In this document: positions 21,293-29,144 of the stretch, in pieces
Numbering within the stretch: position 1 is the first letter of the stretch
Layout of the letters: each line of letters begins with the position of its first letter
NCBI GenBank assembly: GCA_005787035.1
Contig: SYCI01000103.1
Span: 1 to 32,433, forward strand
Length of the DNA stretch: 32,433 bases
Direction: 5' to 3'
From: Actinomycetota bacterium
GTDB taxonomy: Bacteria; Actinomycetota; Acidimicrobiia; Acidimicrobiales; Ilumatobacteraceae
The notes under the pieces: model-generated
Told to the model about the DNA's origin: nothing
The model's database searches: none
Seen by the model: only the letters and a program-made list of their open reading frames with translations
Made by a program: the position numbers and the translations under genes

Positions 21293-21431
21293 GCCGTCAG
21301 GTTATCGGTGGCCGCTTCGGTGACCGTCGGCCGAGTCGCCGATGAATGGGACTCCCGACCCATCGACCGTCAAGCCTCCGTCGCCCACGATCTCGATCAC
21401 ATCACTTCGTTCGGTCTCTGGTGAGGGAGTC

Positions 21432-22094
21432 ATGAATCAACAACCAACAACATCGATCGGTTCGATCGAAGGTCGCAAGGCCGCCGTCGACGCTCGGGTG
21501 CTGGCACCCCTTCGCCGACGAGGCGTACGTCTACCCGAACTCGGAATCGGGATCGCAGTCATCCTCGTGTCGGTCATCGGCTCGCTGTGGTGGCAGTCCC
21601 GAGGCGCCAGTCCGAATCGAATTGCCGTGGCGGCCGACGACTTGAGGGCGGGCGACATTCTGGAGTCGGATGATCTGGCCGCGGTCAGCATCTCGAGTGA
21701 CGACGAGTTGCTGCTCCTCGCGGCGGCCGAGGCGACAACGATCGTCGGTCAGCGGGTCGTCACCGACATCCCGGCGGGTACTCCTCTCACGCGAGCCCAG
21801 TTCTCGGAACTGATGCCACTTTCCTCGACCGAATCGTTGGTGGGAGTGGTCGTGGATGCTTCGCGGGCGCCGCTGGAGATCGTCGCCGGCGATCTTGTCG
21901 ATGTGGTCGCGCTCGATCGGGATCTCACCGGCTCCGACATCGTGAGTTCCGTCGTTCGGCAGGCCCAAGTGTGGTCGGTTTCCGTACCGAATGAGGTTCT
22001 CGATGAACGCTCGGTCACCTTGCGAGTACCCAAGTCGTCGATCGACCTCTTCGTGGGGCACGACGAGATCCACCTGATGAAAGCCGGCTCCTGA
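21432..22094 (+). CDS. SAF domain-containing protein (CpaB/RcpC-like pilus assembly)
   Basis: TM (ELGIGIAVILVSVIGSLWW) then SAF-like IAVAADDLRAGDILESDDLAAVSIS...GQRVVTDIPAGTPLTRAQF; first gene of the Tad cluster. Confidence 0.85.
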   Translation: MNQQPTTSIGSIEGRKAAVDARVLAPLRRRGVRLPELGIGIAVILVSVIGSLWWQSRGASPNRIAVAADDLRAGDILESDDLAAVSISSDDELLLLAAAEATTIVGQRVVTDIPAGTPLTRAQFSELMPLSSTESLVGVVVDASRAPLEIVAGDLVDVVALDRDLTGSDIVSSVVRQAQVWSVSVPNEVLDERSVTLRVPKSSIDLFVGHDEIHLMKAGS

Positions 22095-22095
22095 C

Positions 22096-22776
22096 ATGGC
22101 TCTCGTCGTCACTGCCACGACCGGTGGTCTGATGGACCTCGGAACGGTCTCGCTGCACATCGCCTCGATGTGGTCCACTCCGGTGTGCGTCATCGAGGCC
22201 GACCCCGATGGCGGTCGACTGGCCGCTCGACACAACTGGGAGGTCCGACCGGGGCTCGTGGAGCTCGCCGCTCGTTTGCGATCCTCGACCGGCACCCCAC
22301 CGAAGACCGATGAATTCATTCGACATCATGGTGATGGTGTGTCGGTGGTTGTTGCACCTCCGGCGGCCGAACCAGTCATCGCCGCCCTCGGTGTCCTGGC
22401 TTCCCGACCGCGAATGCTCGAAGAGGCGATTGGTACCGACGTGATCGTCGATGTCGGTCGCGCCCGACCGGATTCCCCGGCTCGAGAATTGATCGCAGCC
22501 GCCGACGTACGTCTCCTCGTGACCCGAACCGATCTCGAGGATGTCGTGTCGGTCGTCCATCGAAGCGATCATCTTCGGTCGCTCGGCGACTGGAAGGTAC
22601 TCACGGCCGGTGGTCGATACGGAATGGACGAGGTCGACCGCGCTCTGGAGTGGCCGGTGATCGCCGATCTGCTGCCGAGCGATCGGAGGAGTAGCGGCCG
22701 CCTGAAGGAAGCAGTTGCCCGACTTCGTTCGACTTCGATGGTGGACACATCTCATCTGGTGACGGCGGTGGCGTAG
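22096..22776 (+). CDS. TadZ/CpaE-like ParA-family protein with degenerate P-loop
   Basis: ALVVTATTGGLMDLGTVSLHIASMWSTPVCVIEADPDGGRLAARH; ParA/MinD-like layout and genomic position, but no Walker A lysine. Confidence 0.65.
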   Translation: MALVVTATTGGLMDLGTVSLHIASMWSTPVCVIEADPDGGRLAARHNWEVRPGLVELAARLRSSTGTPPKTDEFIRHHGDGVSVVVAPPAAEPVIAALGVLASRPRMLEEAIGTDVIVDVGRARPDSPARELIAAADVRLLVTRTDLEDVVSVVHRSDHLRSLGDWKVLTAGGRYGMDEVDRALEWPVIADLLPSDRRSSGRLKEAVARLRSTSMVDTSHLVTAVA

Positions 22777-22778
22777 CC

Positions 22779-24086
22779 ATGGACGACCAGATCCTGATGA
22801 ACAAGGTTCGTGAGCGAGCGGCCGAAGCACTGATCGCTCACCGCCAGGAGAGTCGAGAGACCGGCGCGCGACCGAGGCCCGGAGCCGAAGAGGTGGTCAT
22901 TCGCTCGGCTTGCGGAGTCCTCCTCGACGAGGAGGCGTCGTCGCGCCTGTTGAGTGGCCGTCCCACTCTCGACATCGACACCGAACGACGGATCACCAAG
23001 CGTGTCGTCGACGAGTTGCTCGGGATGGGGCCCCTGCAGGACCTCCTCGACGATCCGGAGATCACCGACATTCACGTCCGGGGCACCTCGCCGGTTTGGG
23101 TGAAGCGACGGGATGGAAGCCGGCTCGAGATTCCGTCCATCGTCGATCACCCCGATGAATTGGTTGCGCTCGTTCGAAATGCAGCTTCACGGTCGTCCCG
23201 CGGTGAGCGTCGCTTCGATGCCTCGACCGTCGAGTGCAACCTCTGTCTGGAAGATGGCAGCCGGCTGTTCGCCATCATGGACGTCTCGTCCGAGCCCTCG
23301 TTGGTGATCAGAAAGCACCAGTTCTCACTTGCATCCCTGTCCGATCTCGAATCCACCGGGATCTTCGGCTCCGAAGTGAGTGACTTCTTCCGAGCTGCCG
23401 TCCGGGCCCGTAGGAACATCGTGATCGCCGGTGGCACCGGGTCCGGAAAGACGACTCTTCTGCGCGCCCTGATCAACGAGGTTCCACGGGACGAGCGCAT
23501 CGTCACGATCGAGGATGCCTACGAGTTGGGTATCGACCGTTTCGGAGATCTGCACCCCGACCACGACGCACTGCAATCGAGGCCACCGAACATCGAGGGC
23601 AACGGCGCCATTCCTTTGGCCGATCTGACTCGGATGGCTCTACGAATGGATCCTGATCGAGTGATCGTCGGCGAAGTGCGGGGCGCGGAGGCCTTTCCGA
23701 TGTTGATGGCAATGAGCCAAGGAAACAACGGATCCATGTGCACGTTGCACGCCGACTCGACTCGATCGGTCTTCCCCAAGCTCGCGGCGTACGTTTCCAT
23801 GGCTGAAACAGGACTTCCCGTCGACATCGTCAATCTCGTGATCGCCTCGGCGGTGCACCTCGTCGTGCACATCGAAATTCGCAACGGCCGACGGAGGATC
23901 ACGAGCATTCGAGAGGTGGTCGATGCCGACGGGGCTCGCATCGTTTCGAATGAGATCTTCGAGAGTGATCAACGTGGTCGTCTCGAGTCCGCATTTCCGA
24001 TGACGGCCGAACTGCGGGATCTGCTCGACGAATACGGATATGCCGCGATTCGGGACAACTCACGCCGATTCCCGGTGGTGGCCTGA
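22779..24086 (+). CDS. tadA: TadA/CpaF-family pilus assembly ATPase
   Basis: RRNIVIAGGTGSGKTTLLRALINEVPRDERIVTIEDAYELGI, LTRMALRMDPDRVIVGEVRGAEAFPMLMAMSQGNNGSMCTLHADS. Confidence 0.95.
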   Translation: MDDQILMNKVRERAAEALIAHRQESRETGARPRPGAEEVVIRSACGVLLDEEASSRLLSGRPTLDIDTERRITKRVVDELLGMGPLQDLLDDPEITDIHVRGTSPVWVKRRDGSRLEIPSIVDHPDELVALVRNAASRSSRGERRFDASTVECNLCLEDGSRLFAIMDVSSEPSLVIRKHQFSLASLSDLESTGIFGSEVSDFFRAAVRARRNIVIAGGTGSGKTTLLRALINEVPRDERIVTIEDAYELGIDRFGDLHPDHDALQSRPPNIEGNGAIPLADLTRMALRMDPDRVIVGEVRGAEAFPMLMAMSQGNNGSMCTLHADSTRSVFPKLAAYVSMAETGLPVDIVNLVIASAVHLVVHIEIRNGRRRITSIREVVDADGARIVSNEIFESDQRGRLESAFPMTAELRDLLDEYGYAAIRDNSRRFPVVA

Positions 24087-24793
24087 TGTCGGTCGTCTGG
24101 TCTCTCGCCTTCGGTCTCTCCATCGGCTCGGGTGCGGTGTTCGTCATCGCGGCGTTGCGAGGTGTGGAGTTTCCGGGAGGTCATCGGTCCAAGGGAAGTT
24201 CTCGTTCCGGGAATTCCGACGATCGACCCCTGGTGGAAGGTCTTGCCGTCTGGATCGAGCAACTCCGCGACATGATGGCCGGCGCGCGGGGACTCGAGCA
24301 GGCCTTGTCGGCAAGTGCGACGACCGCACCCAGCATTGTTCGACCGGCTGTGGAGCGCCTTTCGGCCAATCTCGAGTTTCAATCGCTATCAACGGCGGCT
24401 CGTGGTTTCGCTTCGGATGTGAATCATCCCCTGGCCGACTTCGTGGCTGCGGTTCTGATCACGACTTCTCGGCATCAAGCCCGGGACGTCGTGGCTTTGC
24501 TGACCCAGTTGGCCGAGACATGTCGCGATGAGGTTTCGATGCGTACCCGGGTGTGGGTGTCGCGTGCGCGTACCCGAAGTGCGGTGCGGATCATCTCGGT
24601 GGTGGTCGTTGCATTCATTGCGGGTCTCTTCATCCTCAATCGCGACTATCTGGCTCCTTACTCGTCGGCAGGTGGCGCCATCGTGCTGGTCGTCGTGGTC
24701 TCGCTCTTCGCCGGATCCTTCCTGGGTCTCCGGCAACTGGCCCAATTCGACGTTCCTCCTCGGTTCGTGGCCGCATCAGAGGTCGAATCATGA
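24086..24793 (+). CDS. TadB-like type II secretion system F domain membrane protein
   Basis: T2SSF-like helical arrangement; C-terminal TMs IISVVVVAFIAGLFILNRDYLAPYSSAGGAIVLVVVVSLFAGSFLGLRQLA; start overlaps tadA stop. Confidence 0.8.
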   Translation: MSVVWSLAFGLSIGSGAVFVIAALRGVEFPGGHRSKGSSRSGNSDDRPLVEGLAVWIEQLRDMMAGARGLEQALSASATTAPSIVRPAVERLSANLEFQSLSTAARGFASDVNHPLADFVAAVLITTSRHQARDVVALLTQLAETCRDEVSMRTRVWVSRARTRSAVRIISVVVVAFIAGLFILNRDYLAPYSSAGGAIVLVVVVSLFAGSFLGLRQLAQFDVPPRFVAASEVES

Positions 24794-25635
24794 GCATTCT
24801 CATGGGGGCTTTGCTCGGTACGGGTGTGCTGCTGGTCATGATGGCGATGCGACCACGCGAACTGGAAGTGGCCCTGGCCACTTTTGGTACCGGGGCGATC
24901 CGCTCGGAAACGATGGCTCGACGAGCCCTCCGACTTTCCGCGACGCGATTTGCTCCAGCGTCGAGTGATCTTGCGGTCACCGGTCGTTCACTCGAGTCGT
25001 TTGCCCTCGAACGCATCGTGTGCCTGGCGATCGGCGCCGGGATTCCGATCGGTTGTGGAGTGATCACCCGAATCGGAGGCCTGACACTTCCGATCGGCTT
25101 GCTGTTGCCGTTCGTTCTCGCAGGAGCAACGGCCGGTGCGATGTTGCCCGTCATGACCGTTCGTCAATCGGCGGTGTCGGCCCGTCGGGACTTCCGCTCG
25201 TCCTTGTCCGCCTACCTCGATCTCGTTTCGATCATGCTGGCCGGGGGAGCTGGAGCGGAAACCGCCCTCGTCGCCGCGGCCCGAGTCGGATCCGGTCGAA
25301 CCTTTGCCGTCGTGACCGAGTGCCTCGAAATCGCGCGTTCCAGCCGACGTTCGTTGTGGAGCGTTCTCGCCGAAGAAGGCGACCGTCTCGGGATCATCGA
25401 GCTCCCCGAGCTCGCATCGACCATCCAGTTGAGTGGTGAGCACGGTGCTCGTATGACGGCATCACTCACCGCCAAGGCACGTTCCCTGCGCGCCAAGCAG
25501 ATGGCCGACATCGAAGCTTCGGCGAACGCGGCCACCGAACGAATGGGTTTACCCATGGTCCTGATGTTCATGGGATTCCTGGTGCTTCTCGGGTATCCGG
25601 CGATGCACCTCATCAGTCAGGGATTCAGCAGCTGA
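24790..25635 (+). CDS. TadC-like type II secretion system F domain membrane protein
   Basis: MSILMGALLGTGVLLVMMAMRP...RRDFRSSLSAYLDLVSIMLAGGAGAETALVAAARVG...LPMVLMFMGFLVLLGYPAMHLI; ATGA overlap with preceding gene. ORF track start at 24553 is upstream of the true start. Confidence 0.85.
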   Translation: MSILMGALLGTGVLLVMMAMRPRELEVALATFGTGAIRSETMARRALRLSATRFAPASSDLAVTGRSLESFALERIVCLAIGAGIPIGCGVITRIGGLTLPIGLLLPFVLAGATAGAMLPVMTVRQSAVSARRDFRSSLSAYLDLVSIMLAGGAGAETALVAAARVGSGRTFAVVTECLEIARSSRRSLWSVLAEEGDRLGIIELPELASTIQLSGEHGARMTASLTAKARSLRAKQMADIEASANAATERMGLPMVLMFMGFLVLLGYPAMHLISQGFSS

Positions 25636-25669
25636 ATCACTGGGAAACAACACACCAAAGGAGAAAGAA

Positions 25670-25864
25670 ATGACGCAATTCAGACAGATCTGGGACTACT
25701 ACTCGATTCGCTTGGCGGCGTCTCGAGAAGCGGACCAAGACGCTGGTGAGGTCAGCGCAACGACGGTGGTACTGGCCGCTGCGCTGATCGCCTTGGCGAT
25801 CTCGGTCGGGGTCATCATCACCAACAAGGTTCGTGACAAGGCGAACAGCCTCGACCTGGGCTGA
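25670..25864 (+). CDS. small Flp-pilin-like protein
   Basis: 64 aa with hydrophilic leader, EVSATTVVLAAALIALAISVGVIITNKV helix; between TadC and TadE genes; strong AAAGGAG ribosome binding site just upstream. Confidence 0.75.
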   Translation: MTQFRQIWDYYSIRLAASREADQDAGEVSATTVVLAAALIALAISVGVIITNKVRDKANSLDLG

Positions 25865-25871
25865 ATCCGAC

Positions 25872-26255
25872 ATGAGATCAACTCGTCGCGATCGAGGTTC
25901 GGCCACCTCCGAACTCGTGATCCTCACCCCGGTTTTGGTTCTTCTGATTCTGCTGGTCGTACAGATGTCGATCTACTTCCACGCTTCGCACGTGGCGTCA
26001 GCAGCCGCTTCGGAAGGCGCTGCGGTGGGGGCCGGGGCCGTACCGGACGAGGGCCGGGCCGAGATCGCGGCGACCGAGTTCGTTCGACAGCTGGGCGGGA
26101 CCATCACCCAACCACCCCGCGCGTCGATCGATTCCGAATTGATGAAGGTCCGGGTCTCGGTCGCCATTCCGGCGATCGTCCCGTTTTTCACCGAAGAGGT
26201 CGTGCGTGAGGCAGTGGAGCCGCTCGAAGAGGTCGTGGTGGAGGCCGAGCGATGA
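25872..26255 (+). CDS. TadE-like pseudopilin
   Basis: MRSTRRDRGSATSELVILTPVLVLLILLVVQMSIYFHASHVASAAASEGAAVGAGA. Confidence 0.88.
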   Translation: MRSTRRDRGSATSELVILTPVLVLLILLVVQMSIYFHASHVASAAASEGAAVGAGAVPDEGRAEIAATEFVRQLGGTITQPPRASIDSELMKVRVSVAIPAIVPFFTEEVVREAVEPLEEVVVEAER

Positions 26256-26659
26256 AGCGATTGCTCCGGGACCACGGGAGTGTGTCGGTCGAGATGGTCG
26301 TACTCACCCCTCTGCTCGTTGTACTCACCTTGTTCGGAGTCTTCGCGGGCCGAGTGACCGAAGGTCTCACCTCGGTCCGACACGCAGCCGATCAAGGGGC
26401 GCGGGCTGCTTCGAAGGTTGCCGTGGCGCGGATGGAGATGGTCGGCCGCGAGGCCGCTCTGGAGGATTTGCGGAGTCACGATGTGGCTTGCACTACCCCT
26501 CGCATTTCGGTCACCCGAGGTGACGGCGGACGGACGGTCACGGTGGGTATCGAATGCTTCTCATCCAACGATGGACTCGGACTCCTCGGCGTCTCCTCAC
26601 CCCCGACGCGAGCAAGCTCGACCGAAGTCATCGACTTCTATCGCGGAGGAGACGAATGA
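26252..26659 (+). CDS. TadE-like pseudopilin (second copy)
   Basis: MKRLLRDHGSVSVEMVVLTPLLVVLTLFGVFAGRVTEGLTSVRHAADQGARAASKVA; ATGA overlap with the preceding gene. Confidence 0.82.
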   Translation: MKRLLRDHGSVSVEMVVLTPLLVVLTLFGVFAGRVTEGLTSVRHAADQGARAASKVAVARMEMVGREAALEDLRSHDVACTTPRISVTRGDGGRTVTVGIECFSSNDGLGLLGVSSPPTRASSTEVIDFYRGGDE

Positions 26660-27048
26660 GGGCGACGTGTCGCGACCATGGGATCATCTCAGCTTTCGTC
26701 GTCGGCATCGTGCTGACTCTCATTCTGTCCACCGGGCTCGCTCTCGACAGTGGTCGATTGGTTGCCGCGCGAGTCGAGATCGCCGACCACGCCGAAAATG
26801 CAGCCCGACTCGCAGCGCAGGAAGTAGTGGGTATCCGTTCGGGCCGTCCGGTGGTCGACCCGGTACGAGGCCGCCGTGTCGCCTCCACTTACTTGGCAAG
26901 TCATGGCCTGGACGGAACCGTCACTATCGGATCGCGATCGGTCACCGTCGAGGTCCACACGACTCGGAACATGCTGATACTCCAGTTGGCTGGTATTTCG
27001 TCGAAGACGGTGTCGGCATCCCGTACTGCGGAGATCACCGACGCATGA
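26656..27048 (+). CDS. TadG/TadE-neighbourhood-like pilus protein
   Basis: MRATCRDHGIISAFVVGIVLTLILSTGLALDSGRLVAARVEIADHAENAARLAAQEVVG; ATGA overlap. Confidence 0.78.
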   Translation: MRATCRDHGIISAFVVGIVLTLILSTGLALDSGRLVAARVEIADHAENAARLAAQEVVGIRSGRPVVDPVRGRRVASTYLASHGLDGTVTIGSRSVTVEVHTTRNMLILQLAGISSKTVSASRTAEITDA

Positions 27049-29144
27049 GAAAGATGATCTTTCGTTTGCTATTGATCGTTTTCGTCACTCTTCCGTTGAT
27101 CGGTGGAACGATCGGTCTGGGGACGCAATTCGATTCCGGGTCTCTTGCTCGGGACATCACCCAGTTGTTCATTCGGACATGGAGTGGCGAGGTCGACGCT
27201 GGAGTTCTGATCGCCTGGTGTTCGATCGGTCTGTTGGTGACATGGTGGTTGGTCGGTCTCTCGTTGATCAGAGCGATGATCAGCCTGCGCAAGGGTGGGG
27301 GCACGAGAAGCGGTGTTGGTCGATGGCTTGCCGTCGCGGTGATCACCGGAGCTCTCCCCATCGGTGAAACAGCGGTGAGTGCTTCCGAGTCAGCGCCGAT
27401 TTCAGTCGAGTCATCGACGGTTGGTTCGAAGGTTGAGGACGAGTCGACTGCTCGCGGATTGGACGCCAACGAAGTCCTTTCTTTCAGTCTCGGAGCCGGA
27501 TCGGCATTGGTGGGGGCCGGAATGGTCAAGCGGATACGGCATAGCCAGCTCCGCCGGCTTCGTGAGGTTGATCGCGATTCGGAGCCGATCCGCGTCCCGG
27601 ACGAGCTCGTCGAGTGGCCGGCATGGAAACGCGCCGAAGTGCTCGTCGAGCGAATGGAGTCGGCGATCGCAATTGCCGCCGAGATCGAGCGGGAAGCACA
27701 GGTTGTCCAAGTGGTCGTTCACGAATCGGGGGATCTCCTCCTCGAGTTCGATCGAGTCCCCAAAGTCACCGAACCCTTCGAACGCGTCTCGAACCGAATC
27801 GCTCGTCTACGAAGTGCGGTCGATGTCGGCGCTTCGAGGTCGTCGGAGCTCCTGACCGTGCTGATCCACGTCGGGCGAACCACGGGTGGAAGCGTTTGGA
27901 TCAACCTCGCGGCAACACGAAGCTTCATGGTCGATGATGAGGCTGACGACTCCGCAGTGGTGTGGCGTGCACTGACCTCGGGCGTCCGACTCGGACCTTT
28001 CAATGAACGGGTGACGATCGTAGGCGGCGAGCAAGATGGAGCCGTCGGTACCGGTTTGATGACGACGGAGTCCGAGGTAGCCACGGTGGCTGGATTGATC
28101 TCGGATATCGGCCCGACTTTGGCGCTTCTGGAGGCACGGGACGAGAGGTTGAATCCCGCCAACATCCTCTGCCTCTGTCAGGGAAAAGCCGGTCCTCGCG
28201 ATCACGGTTTGGTCACGTCTGACAGTGGCTGGCGCCTCATGCCTTCGGGGATTGCAATCGAGCCAGTGGGGATGGCCGATGACGAAATTCAGCGCGTTCG
28301 TCAGTTGCTTGGTGACGAACACCTGCCGATGATCGTCCGGGAACGAGTCCCCGTGGAGATGGTGTGTGAGCCACACCATGCTCTGCCTCAGTGGACGTTC
28401 TTGGCGAGCGTGATGGGCCCACCCATGGTGGCTCATCGATCGCAGGGTCGAGTGGAGTTCGAGCGCTCGAAGGCCGAAGAACTCGTGATCTGGCTGGCTC
28501 TTCATCCGCAACAGCGACGTCGCTCACTTGCCCGCACTGCGCTCTGGAACGCCGCGGTCAAGGACGCAACTTTCTCGAACATCACTGCCGAGGTGCGCCG
28601 GGCATTGTCGATCATCGAAGACTCCGGCCCTGGTGAGCATTGGCTCGGTATCACGATGACCGACGATCTACCCCTGCACGAGTCCATCGTCGCCGACTCT
28701 CACATTCTGAAAGGGGCCTTGGACCATGCCCGGTCGGTACCGGAAGACGACGGGATCGGAGCTCTTCGCGAAGGCCTGGATCTTGTTCGGGGAACGCCGT
28801 TCTGTGGTTCGAACTTCATATGGCCTGATTACATCGGCGTGAGCAGTGATGTCGCCGTGATGATCGTACGTGCGTCGATGCTCATGGCCGATATGTGTCG
28901 GGAGGTTGGTGACCTGGAAGGTGTTTATTGGGCGACAGCGAAGGGGCTCGCAGCATTACCTGGGCACGAAGAACTCGTCGCGATACGCATGAAGGCTCAC
29001 GCCGACCACGGCGACTTCAGCGGTGTGCGTGCCGAGTGGGATTCGTATTGTCGGGCGATCGCTGCCGACGAATGGCGTCCGTCCGAGCCGGCCCCGAAAC
29101 TTGTCGAGTTATGGCGACAACTCGGCGGAAGGCCAGCTACCTGA
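27045..29144 (+). CDS. multi-TM protein with C-terminal BTAD (bacterial transcriptional activator)/SARP-like region
   Basis: 699 aa from ATG 27045 (ATGA overlap with preceding pilus gene). N-terminal TMs IFRLLLIVFVTLPLIGGTIGLG, VLIAWCSIGLLVTWWLVGLSLI and LAVAVITGALPIG; C-terminus ELVIWLALHPQQRRRSLARTALWNAAVKDATFSNITAEVRRALSI...ALREGLDLVRGTPFCG...ATAKGLAALPGHEELVAIRMKAHADHGD. Confidence 0.8.
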   Translation: MRKMIFRLLLIVFVTLPLIGGTIGLGTQFDSGSLARDITQLFIRTWSGEVDAGVLIAWCSIGLLVTWWLVGLSLIRAMISLRKGGGTRSGVGRWLAVAVITGALPIGETAVSASESAPISVESSTVGSKVEDESTARGLDANEVLSFSLGAGSALVGAGMVKRIRHSQLRRLREVDRDSEPIRVPDELVEWPAWKRAEVLVERMESAIAIAAEIEREAQVVQVVVHESGDLLLEFDRVPKVTEPFERVSNRIARLRSAVDVGASRSSELLTVLIHVGRTTGGSVWINLAATRSFMVDDEADDSAVVWRALTSGVRLGPFNERVTIVGGEQDGAVGTGLMTTESEVATVAGLISDIGPTLALLEARDERLNPANILCLCQGKAGPRDHGLVTSDSGWRLMPSGIAIEPVGMADDEIQRVRQLLGDEHLPMIVRERVPVEMVCEPHHALPQWTFLASVMGPPMVAHRSQGRVEFERSKAEELVIWLALHPQQRRRSLARTALWNAAVKDATFSNITAEVRRALSIIEDSGPGEHWLGITMTDDLPLHESIVADSHILKGALDHARSVPEDDGIGALREGLDLVRGTPFCGSNFIWPDYIGVSSDVAVMIVRASMLMADMCREVGDLEGVYWATAKGLAALPGHEELVAIRMKAHADHGDFSGVRAEWDSYCRAIAADEWRPSEPAPKLVELWRQLGGRPAT

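Follow-up and report, generated by a model that had tools for sequence, protein, structure and literature searches.

The tad operon and its last gene

The window, a stretch of 32,433 nucleotides from an actinobacterium of the family Ilumatobacteraceae, contains a Tad pilus operon that ends in a gene for a membrane-anchored, SARP-like protein, called the window protein below. The host genome assembly, a draft of 2.19 Mb and 166 contigs, is 77.5% complete and has one copy of the SARP-like gene. The operon contains the following features.

21342-22094, + strand: SAF-domain protein, CpaB/RcpC-like (Pfam); start probably at 21432, as in the same-genus locus L104
22096-22776, + strand: TadZ-like protein (position and homologues; without a Pfam match)
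22779-24086, + strand: TadA/CpaF ATPase (Pfam T2SSE)
24086-24793, + strand: TadB (Pfam T2SSF)
24790-25635, + strand: TadC (Pfam T2SSF)
25670-25864, + strand: candidate Flp pilin of 64 aa (MTQFRQIWDYYSIRLAASREADQDAGEVSATTVVLAAALIALAISVGVII...), absent from the ORF list, between tadC and tadE (position and hydrophobic segment only)
25833-26255, + strand: TadE-like pseudopilin 1 (domain search)
26252-26659, + strand: TadE-like pseudopilin 2 (domain search)
26554-27048, + strand: TadG-like protein; start probably at 26656, with an ATGA overlap with the preceding stop
27045-29144, + strand: membrane-anchored SARP-like (wHTH-BTAD) protein of 699 aa; ends the tad operon (ORF, translation, family searches)
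27045-27048, + strand: ATGA overlap with the tadG stop codon, likely translational coupling

Within the last gene we distinguish these parts.

27066-27122, + strand: TM1, residues 8-26 (hydropathy)
27204-27260, + strand: TM2, residues 54-72, then an Arg/Lys-rich, presumably cytoplasmic loop (hydropathy, sequence)
27309-27365, + strand: TM3, residues 89-107, weak (hydropathy)
27366-27470, + strand: short extracytoplasmic loop of ~35 aa, without LysM (Pfam LysM comparison, 20 aligned proteins)
27471-27527, + strand: TM4, residues 143-161, weak, then KRIRHSQLRRLR, presumably cytoplasmic (hydropathy, sequence)
27540-28364, + strand: central domain, residues 166-440, a probable degenerate FtsK/EccC-like fold without Walker A (Foldseek, profile, hhalign)
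28383-28679, + strand: OmpR-type winged helix, residues 447-545 (AlphaFold, Foldseek, profile, AfsR residue mapping)
28680-29141, + strand: BTAD, TPR-like, all-helical, residues 546-699 (AlphaFold, Foldseek, profile; Pfam in relatives)

An earlier note on this DNA had described an ORF of 699 aa that overlaps the previous pilus gene by ATGA and has hydrophobic segments near its N-terminus. Translation of 27045-29144 gives 699 aa plus a stop, and the tadG ORF ends at 27048, in agreement with both statements. Hydropathy gives four hydrophobic segments, all within the first 165 residues, so the proposed membrane anchoring also holds. We infer an N-in/C-in topology. Most relatives have a start codon at -7 to +16 nt relative to the tadG stop, and the 4-nt overlap is possible in 14 of 33.

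Relatives of the window protein are mostly 800-1,200 aa long, as compared with its 699 aa. Of 20 aligned proteins, 13 have a Pfam match to LysM, with one or two copies in the outer loop, and 14 have one to BTAD, but the window protein itself matches neither. LysM is likewise absent by sequence from L104, whose protein is 41% identical, and from L031. The spacing between TM3 and TM4 is only ~35 residues in the window protein and therefore leaves no room for this domain. In many relatives (e.g. L036, L037, L046 and L052) the end of TM3 is often a signal-peptidase-like A-x-A when inspected by eye. Such a stretch could allow cleavage ahead of LysM.

Searches with the window protein as a single sequence were uninformative: Pfam and NCBIfam gave no model match at E<=1, a PDB search was empty or noise, and a contig scan of genomes gave no matches. 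The earlier call of a winged helix and BTAD at the C-terminus therefore did not come from a domain match.

Occurrence and gene neighbourhood

The SARP-like gene recurs as the last gene of Tad operons in much of the phylum, and is not an oddity of one genome. A search with the C-terminal part found it in 73 of 198 genomes of the same order. Tad genes lie directly upstream, in the same order, in 18 of 20 loci fetched at this level; one exception starts at a contig end (L045) and the other is without tad genes (L043). With the central domain alone as query, 25 of 297 genomes of the phylum gave a match. Here tad genes are upstream in 17 of 20 fetched loci and mostly adjoin the SARP-like gene, with a gap of 0.85-6.5 kb in four loci (L111, L113, L114, L120). 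Two of the remaining loci are cut by contig ends, and L121 is without tad genes by the models used. Plasmids of Xylanimonas, Streptomyces, Nonomuraea and Cellulosimicrobium have the same tad gene order in all four cases, and their copies are labelled by NCBI as "LysM peptidoglycan-binding domain-containing protein" or "BTAD domain-containing putative transcriptional regulator". The common order in Actinomycetota is CpaB-TadZ-TadA-TadB-TadC-Flp-TadE-TadE-TadG, then the SARP-like gene.

The converse search agrees with this picture. For 54 of the best 80 TadA matches in the order, a SARP-like gene is encoded within 14 kb on the same strand, and 51 of these genes are 4.3-7.1 kb downstream. Several TadA matches that lack such a neighbour sit at contig ends. 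There is one SARP-like copy per tad cluster, and genomes with two clusters (G436 and G350) have two copies each. G436, which is of the same genus as the window, has a SARP-like gene in each cluster (L103 and L104); one cluster has a longer relative of 1009 aa, while the other matches the window cluster and is without LysM. The earlier note had mentioned large BTAD proteins near tad genes in other actinobacteria, which the loci and plasmids bear out, and the neighbourhood survey that it proposed finds homologues together with tad genes rather than away from them.

We did not count the gene at L043:13360-15369 as a full member. Its product of 669 aa has a SARP-like C-terminus, but it has neither tad genes beside it nor the N-terminal anchor pattern, and tad genes were not found in that genome.

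The C-terminal SARP unit

The predicted structure of the C-terminus resembles known SARPs. In an AlphaFold model built from a 20-sequence alignment, residues 451-694 have a pLDDT of mostly 90-97, with the wHTH-BTAD part at ~95. Foldseek with the C-terminal ~250 aa places AfsR first (8k60, 8hvr; E about 2e-6) and EmbR next (2ff4, 2fez; E 1e-5 to 3e-5). A PDB search with the alignment profile also has AfsR first (E 4.3e-8), and gives weak matches to CadC (E 0.0055), TcpP and ToxR. The winged helix and BTAD that had been read from the letters alone are thus borne out by the AlphaFold model, Foldseek and the profile search. As in AfsR and EmbR, an all-helical BTA domain directly follows an OmpR-type winged helix. 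Unlike in these proteins, the unit is C-terminal (residues 447-699 of 699) in a protein with four TMs, while extra domains of known SARPs lie C-terminal to the SARP unit (PMC10936776).

We compared the family with the DNA and sigma contacts reported for AfsR (PMC10936776). Two residues that contact the DNA backbone are kept, namely the equivalents of R94 (43 of 44 members) and W74 (41 of 44). The S91 equivalent is S or T in 32 of 44, and that of K95 is conservative, mostly R. By contrast, the equivalent of R92, which contacts a base, is variable and is E in the window protein, those of P79 and R87 are not conserved, and the acidic residues that contact sigma (E68, D71, E76 and E77) have no conserved equivalents. 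The recognition helix has a net charge of +1 in the window protein, 2.0 on average in the family and 3 in AfsR. On this evidence, and that of the upstream regions (see below), DNA binding by the wHTH-BTAD unit is plausible; the R94 and W74 equivalents may be kept for the fold alone.

The central domain

The earlier note could not assign the long central region, but an alignment of 20 sequences, AlphaFold, Foldseek and hhalign make an assignment possible. Foldseek with the model gives FtsK first (6t8g, E 3.6e-4), then TcpA, the EccC of ESX-3 and the Thermomonospora EccC, with low TM-scores of 0.28-0.34. A family profile searched against the PDB has the DUF domain of EccC5 as its best match, at an E-value of only 0.048. 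The hhalign scores of the profile are 41 with EccC D1 and 40 with the DUF domain of EccC; shuffled columns reach at most 14.4 and 17.6, respectively, in 100 trials. Walker A is absent at the P-loop position in all 24 proteins checked. We therefore consider, with moderate confidence, that the middle ~270 aa are a degenerate FtsK/EccC-like domain without Walker A; the confidence is only moderate because the TM-scores are low and the alignment has 20 sequences.

Conservation and conflicting trees

Both parts were measured in 11 pairs, and in each of them the SARP part exceeds the central part in conservation. In pairs of relatives it is mostly less conserved than TadA. Between the window protein and L104, for example, identity is 63% in the SARP part, 31% in the central part and 29% at the N-terminus.

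The trees of SARP domains and of TadA disagree. Host-family SARP domains form one clade (97/97), whereas the TadA proteins of the same family fall in three places; L103, a further host-family copy, stands apart in both trees. The conflict concerns eight rows (window 21342-29144, L031-L034 and L104-L106). In an AU test the TadA data reject a single clade for these rows (p 0.0075), and the SARP data reject a grouping of the window and L104 with L110 (p 2e-5), although these p-values are optimistic because the groups were chosen after the trees were seen and some TadA branches are long. The conflict suggests an exchange in which pilus genes were replaced beside a resident SARP-like gene, or the SARP-like gene beside resident pilus genes. 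By pairwise scores, the other pilus genes of the window appear to go with TadA, which would place the exchange break near the junction of tadG and the SARP-like gene.

Upstream regions

Known SARP sites are direct repeats of 11 or 22 bp. None are present in the upstream region of the window, and 30 regions upstream of tad operons show no enrichment of such repeats (p 0.185). The 22-bp spacing taken separately has a p-value of 0.075, which is meaningless because a control spacing of 12 bp gave a higher score (p 0.035). We also found no promoter-like site above chance. A regulated target may be a promoter other than that upstream of the tad genes. In L104, a perfect inverted repeat, GTGATGT-CC-ACATCAC, occurs just upstream of 9605 (minus strand), before the CpaB start; the window has only the ACATCAC half at the corresponding position, near 21400.

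Relation to known proteins

Annotation pipelines already recognise the family, but it is functionally unstudied as far as we found. In the tad locus of the Cutibacterium acnes plasmid pIMPLE-HL096PA1, PAGK_2369 has LysM and BTAD and is labelled TadB (PMC3666418, 2013). PAGK_2369 follows tadE/tadG and has a C-terminal BTAD, as in the window; its published domain list is what places it with the family. XCEL_RS17175, annotated as "LysM peptidoglycan-binding domain-containing protein", has the same position and C-terminus. Our search places the annotated plasmid proteins in the same family as the window protein, but they are longer (roughly 950-1130 aa), and the window protein is without LysM. A paper on eCIS that mentions LysM and BTAD concerns separate shell domains and not this protein. 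Open-licence papers on BTAD with LysM or tad, and on actinobacterial Tad systems, gave us no functional study of the family. New here are the putative pseudo-ATPase middle, the absence of LysM, the SARP part as the best conserved part, and the conflict between the SARP and TadA trees.

Three other groups of proteins are partly similar. The middle domain resembles the FtsK, EccC and TcpA ATPases in its predicted fold, but is without Walker A and is fused to a SARP unit. ToxR, CadC and TcpP are membrane proteins with a cytoplasmic OmpR-type winged helix, as predicted here. Their wHTH is N-terminal and they have a single TM, while that of the window protein is C-terminal after four TMs and occurs with BTAD. 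Finally, the polar hubs FimV and HubP consist of LysM, a TM and a cytoplasmic TPR domain (PMC12918733), and are connected with pili in some species. The extracytoplasmic LysM, TM and cytoplasmic TPR-like C-terminus of our family resemble this arrangement, with LysM in relatives only. The window protein is without LysM, and FimV as described has neither a wHTH nor FtsK-like domains (PMC12918733).

Possible functions

We slightly favour a membrane-tethered regulator over a FimV-like scaffold. We put close to an even chance on a dedicated SARP-type regulator that the Tad operon carries and that is tethered to the membrane. Its extracytoplasmic loop, with LysM in most relatives, would read the cell wall or the base of the pilus, and the pseudo-ATPase domain would relay the sensed state or mediate oligomerisation at the machine. 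The wHTH-BTAD unit would bind DNA from its place in the membrane, in the manner of ToxR and CadC, and would tune the expression of the tad operon or of genes employed together with it. With its gene last in the operon and translationally coupled, the regulator would be produced only alongside the whole machine. The modelled fold, with AfsR and EmbR as best matches at high confidence, argues for this reading, and so would the kept backbone contacts (R94 and W74, with S or T at S91) and the high conservation of the SARP part, which stays where LysM is absent. An intact SARP clade with a split TadA would also follow from a SARP end that is fitted to the host cell more than to any one machine. Against a regulator would count the variable R92, the lost sigma contacts, the low charge of the helix and the lack of repeat enrichment. 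The wHTH-BTAD fold would also suit an ordinary stand-alone SARP that adjoins tad genes by chance, but this is very unlikely: the TMs, central domain and position after tadG recur across the phylum, and the neighbourhood survey, with a SARP-like gene near 54 of the best 80 TadA, contradicts it.

A strong rival reading, which we rate somewhat short of an even chance, is that the protein serves as a hub for the structure or assembly of the Tad machine where cells have no outer membrane. The missing base- and sigma-contact residues speak for it. LysM, where present, would anchor such a hub to peptidoglycan, the TMs and the Walker-less FtsK-like domain would sit at the machine, and wHTH-BTAD would be a TPR-like docking platform for TadA/TadZ, after FimV/HubP. 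The near-invariant gene order, the single copy per cluster, LysM in 13 of 20 aligned proteins, a middle domain like machine ATPases of the FtsK/EccC kind and the analogy with the FimV/HubP architecture (PMC12918733) are consistent with this. However, the window protein, L104 and L031 lack LysM and most of the outer loop, the N-terminal and central parts, where contacts with the machine are expected, are least conserved, and the history of the SARP domain disagrees with that of TadA. The protein might also do both: it would be part of the machine, and transcription would depend on its conformation or on its release, through a SARP end that moonlights or is freed by proteolysis. The mixed architecture, the retention of SARP along with the tad position and the signal-peptidase-like TM3 end seen by eye in several relatives would fit, but we consider this reading, with its hypothetical cleavage or release of the SARP end, improbable.

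With the regulator reading in mind, we tentatively propose, at somewhat less than even probability, a dedicated, phylum-wide component of actinobacterial Tad systems. In it, a membrane-embedded pseudo-ATPase with a SARP unit would let one protein signal how the pilus machine or the cell wall stands directly to transcription machinery on the DNA. As far as we found, a membrane SARP layout has not been described before.

Several parts of Gram-negative Tad pili have no known counterpart in bacteria that lack an outer membrane, and to our knowledge the anchoring and control of the pili of such bacteria are little studied. The component described here is kept at the operon end from uncultured relatives to plasmids of Streptomyces, and so is a clear candidate for anchoring or control. 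If it is a true membrane SARP, it would be a new layout for a regulator family that controls antibiotic production. Moreover, the conflict between the SARP and TadA trees gives a starting point for sorting host parts from machine parts.
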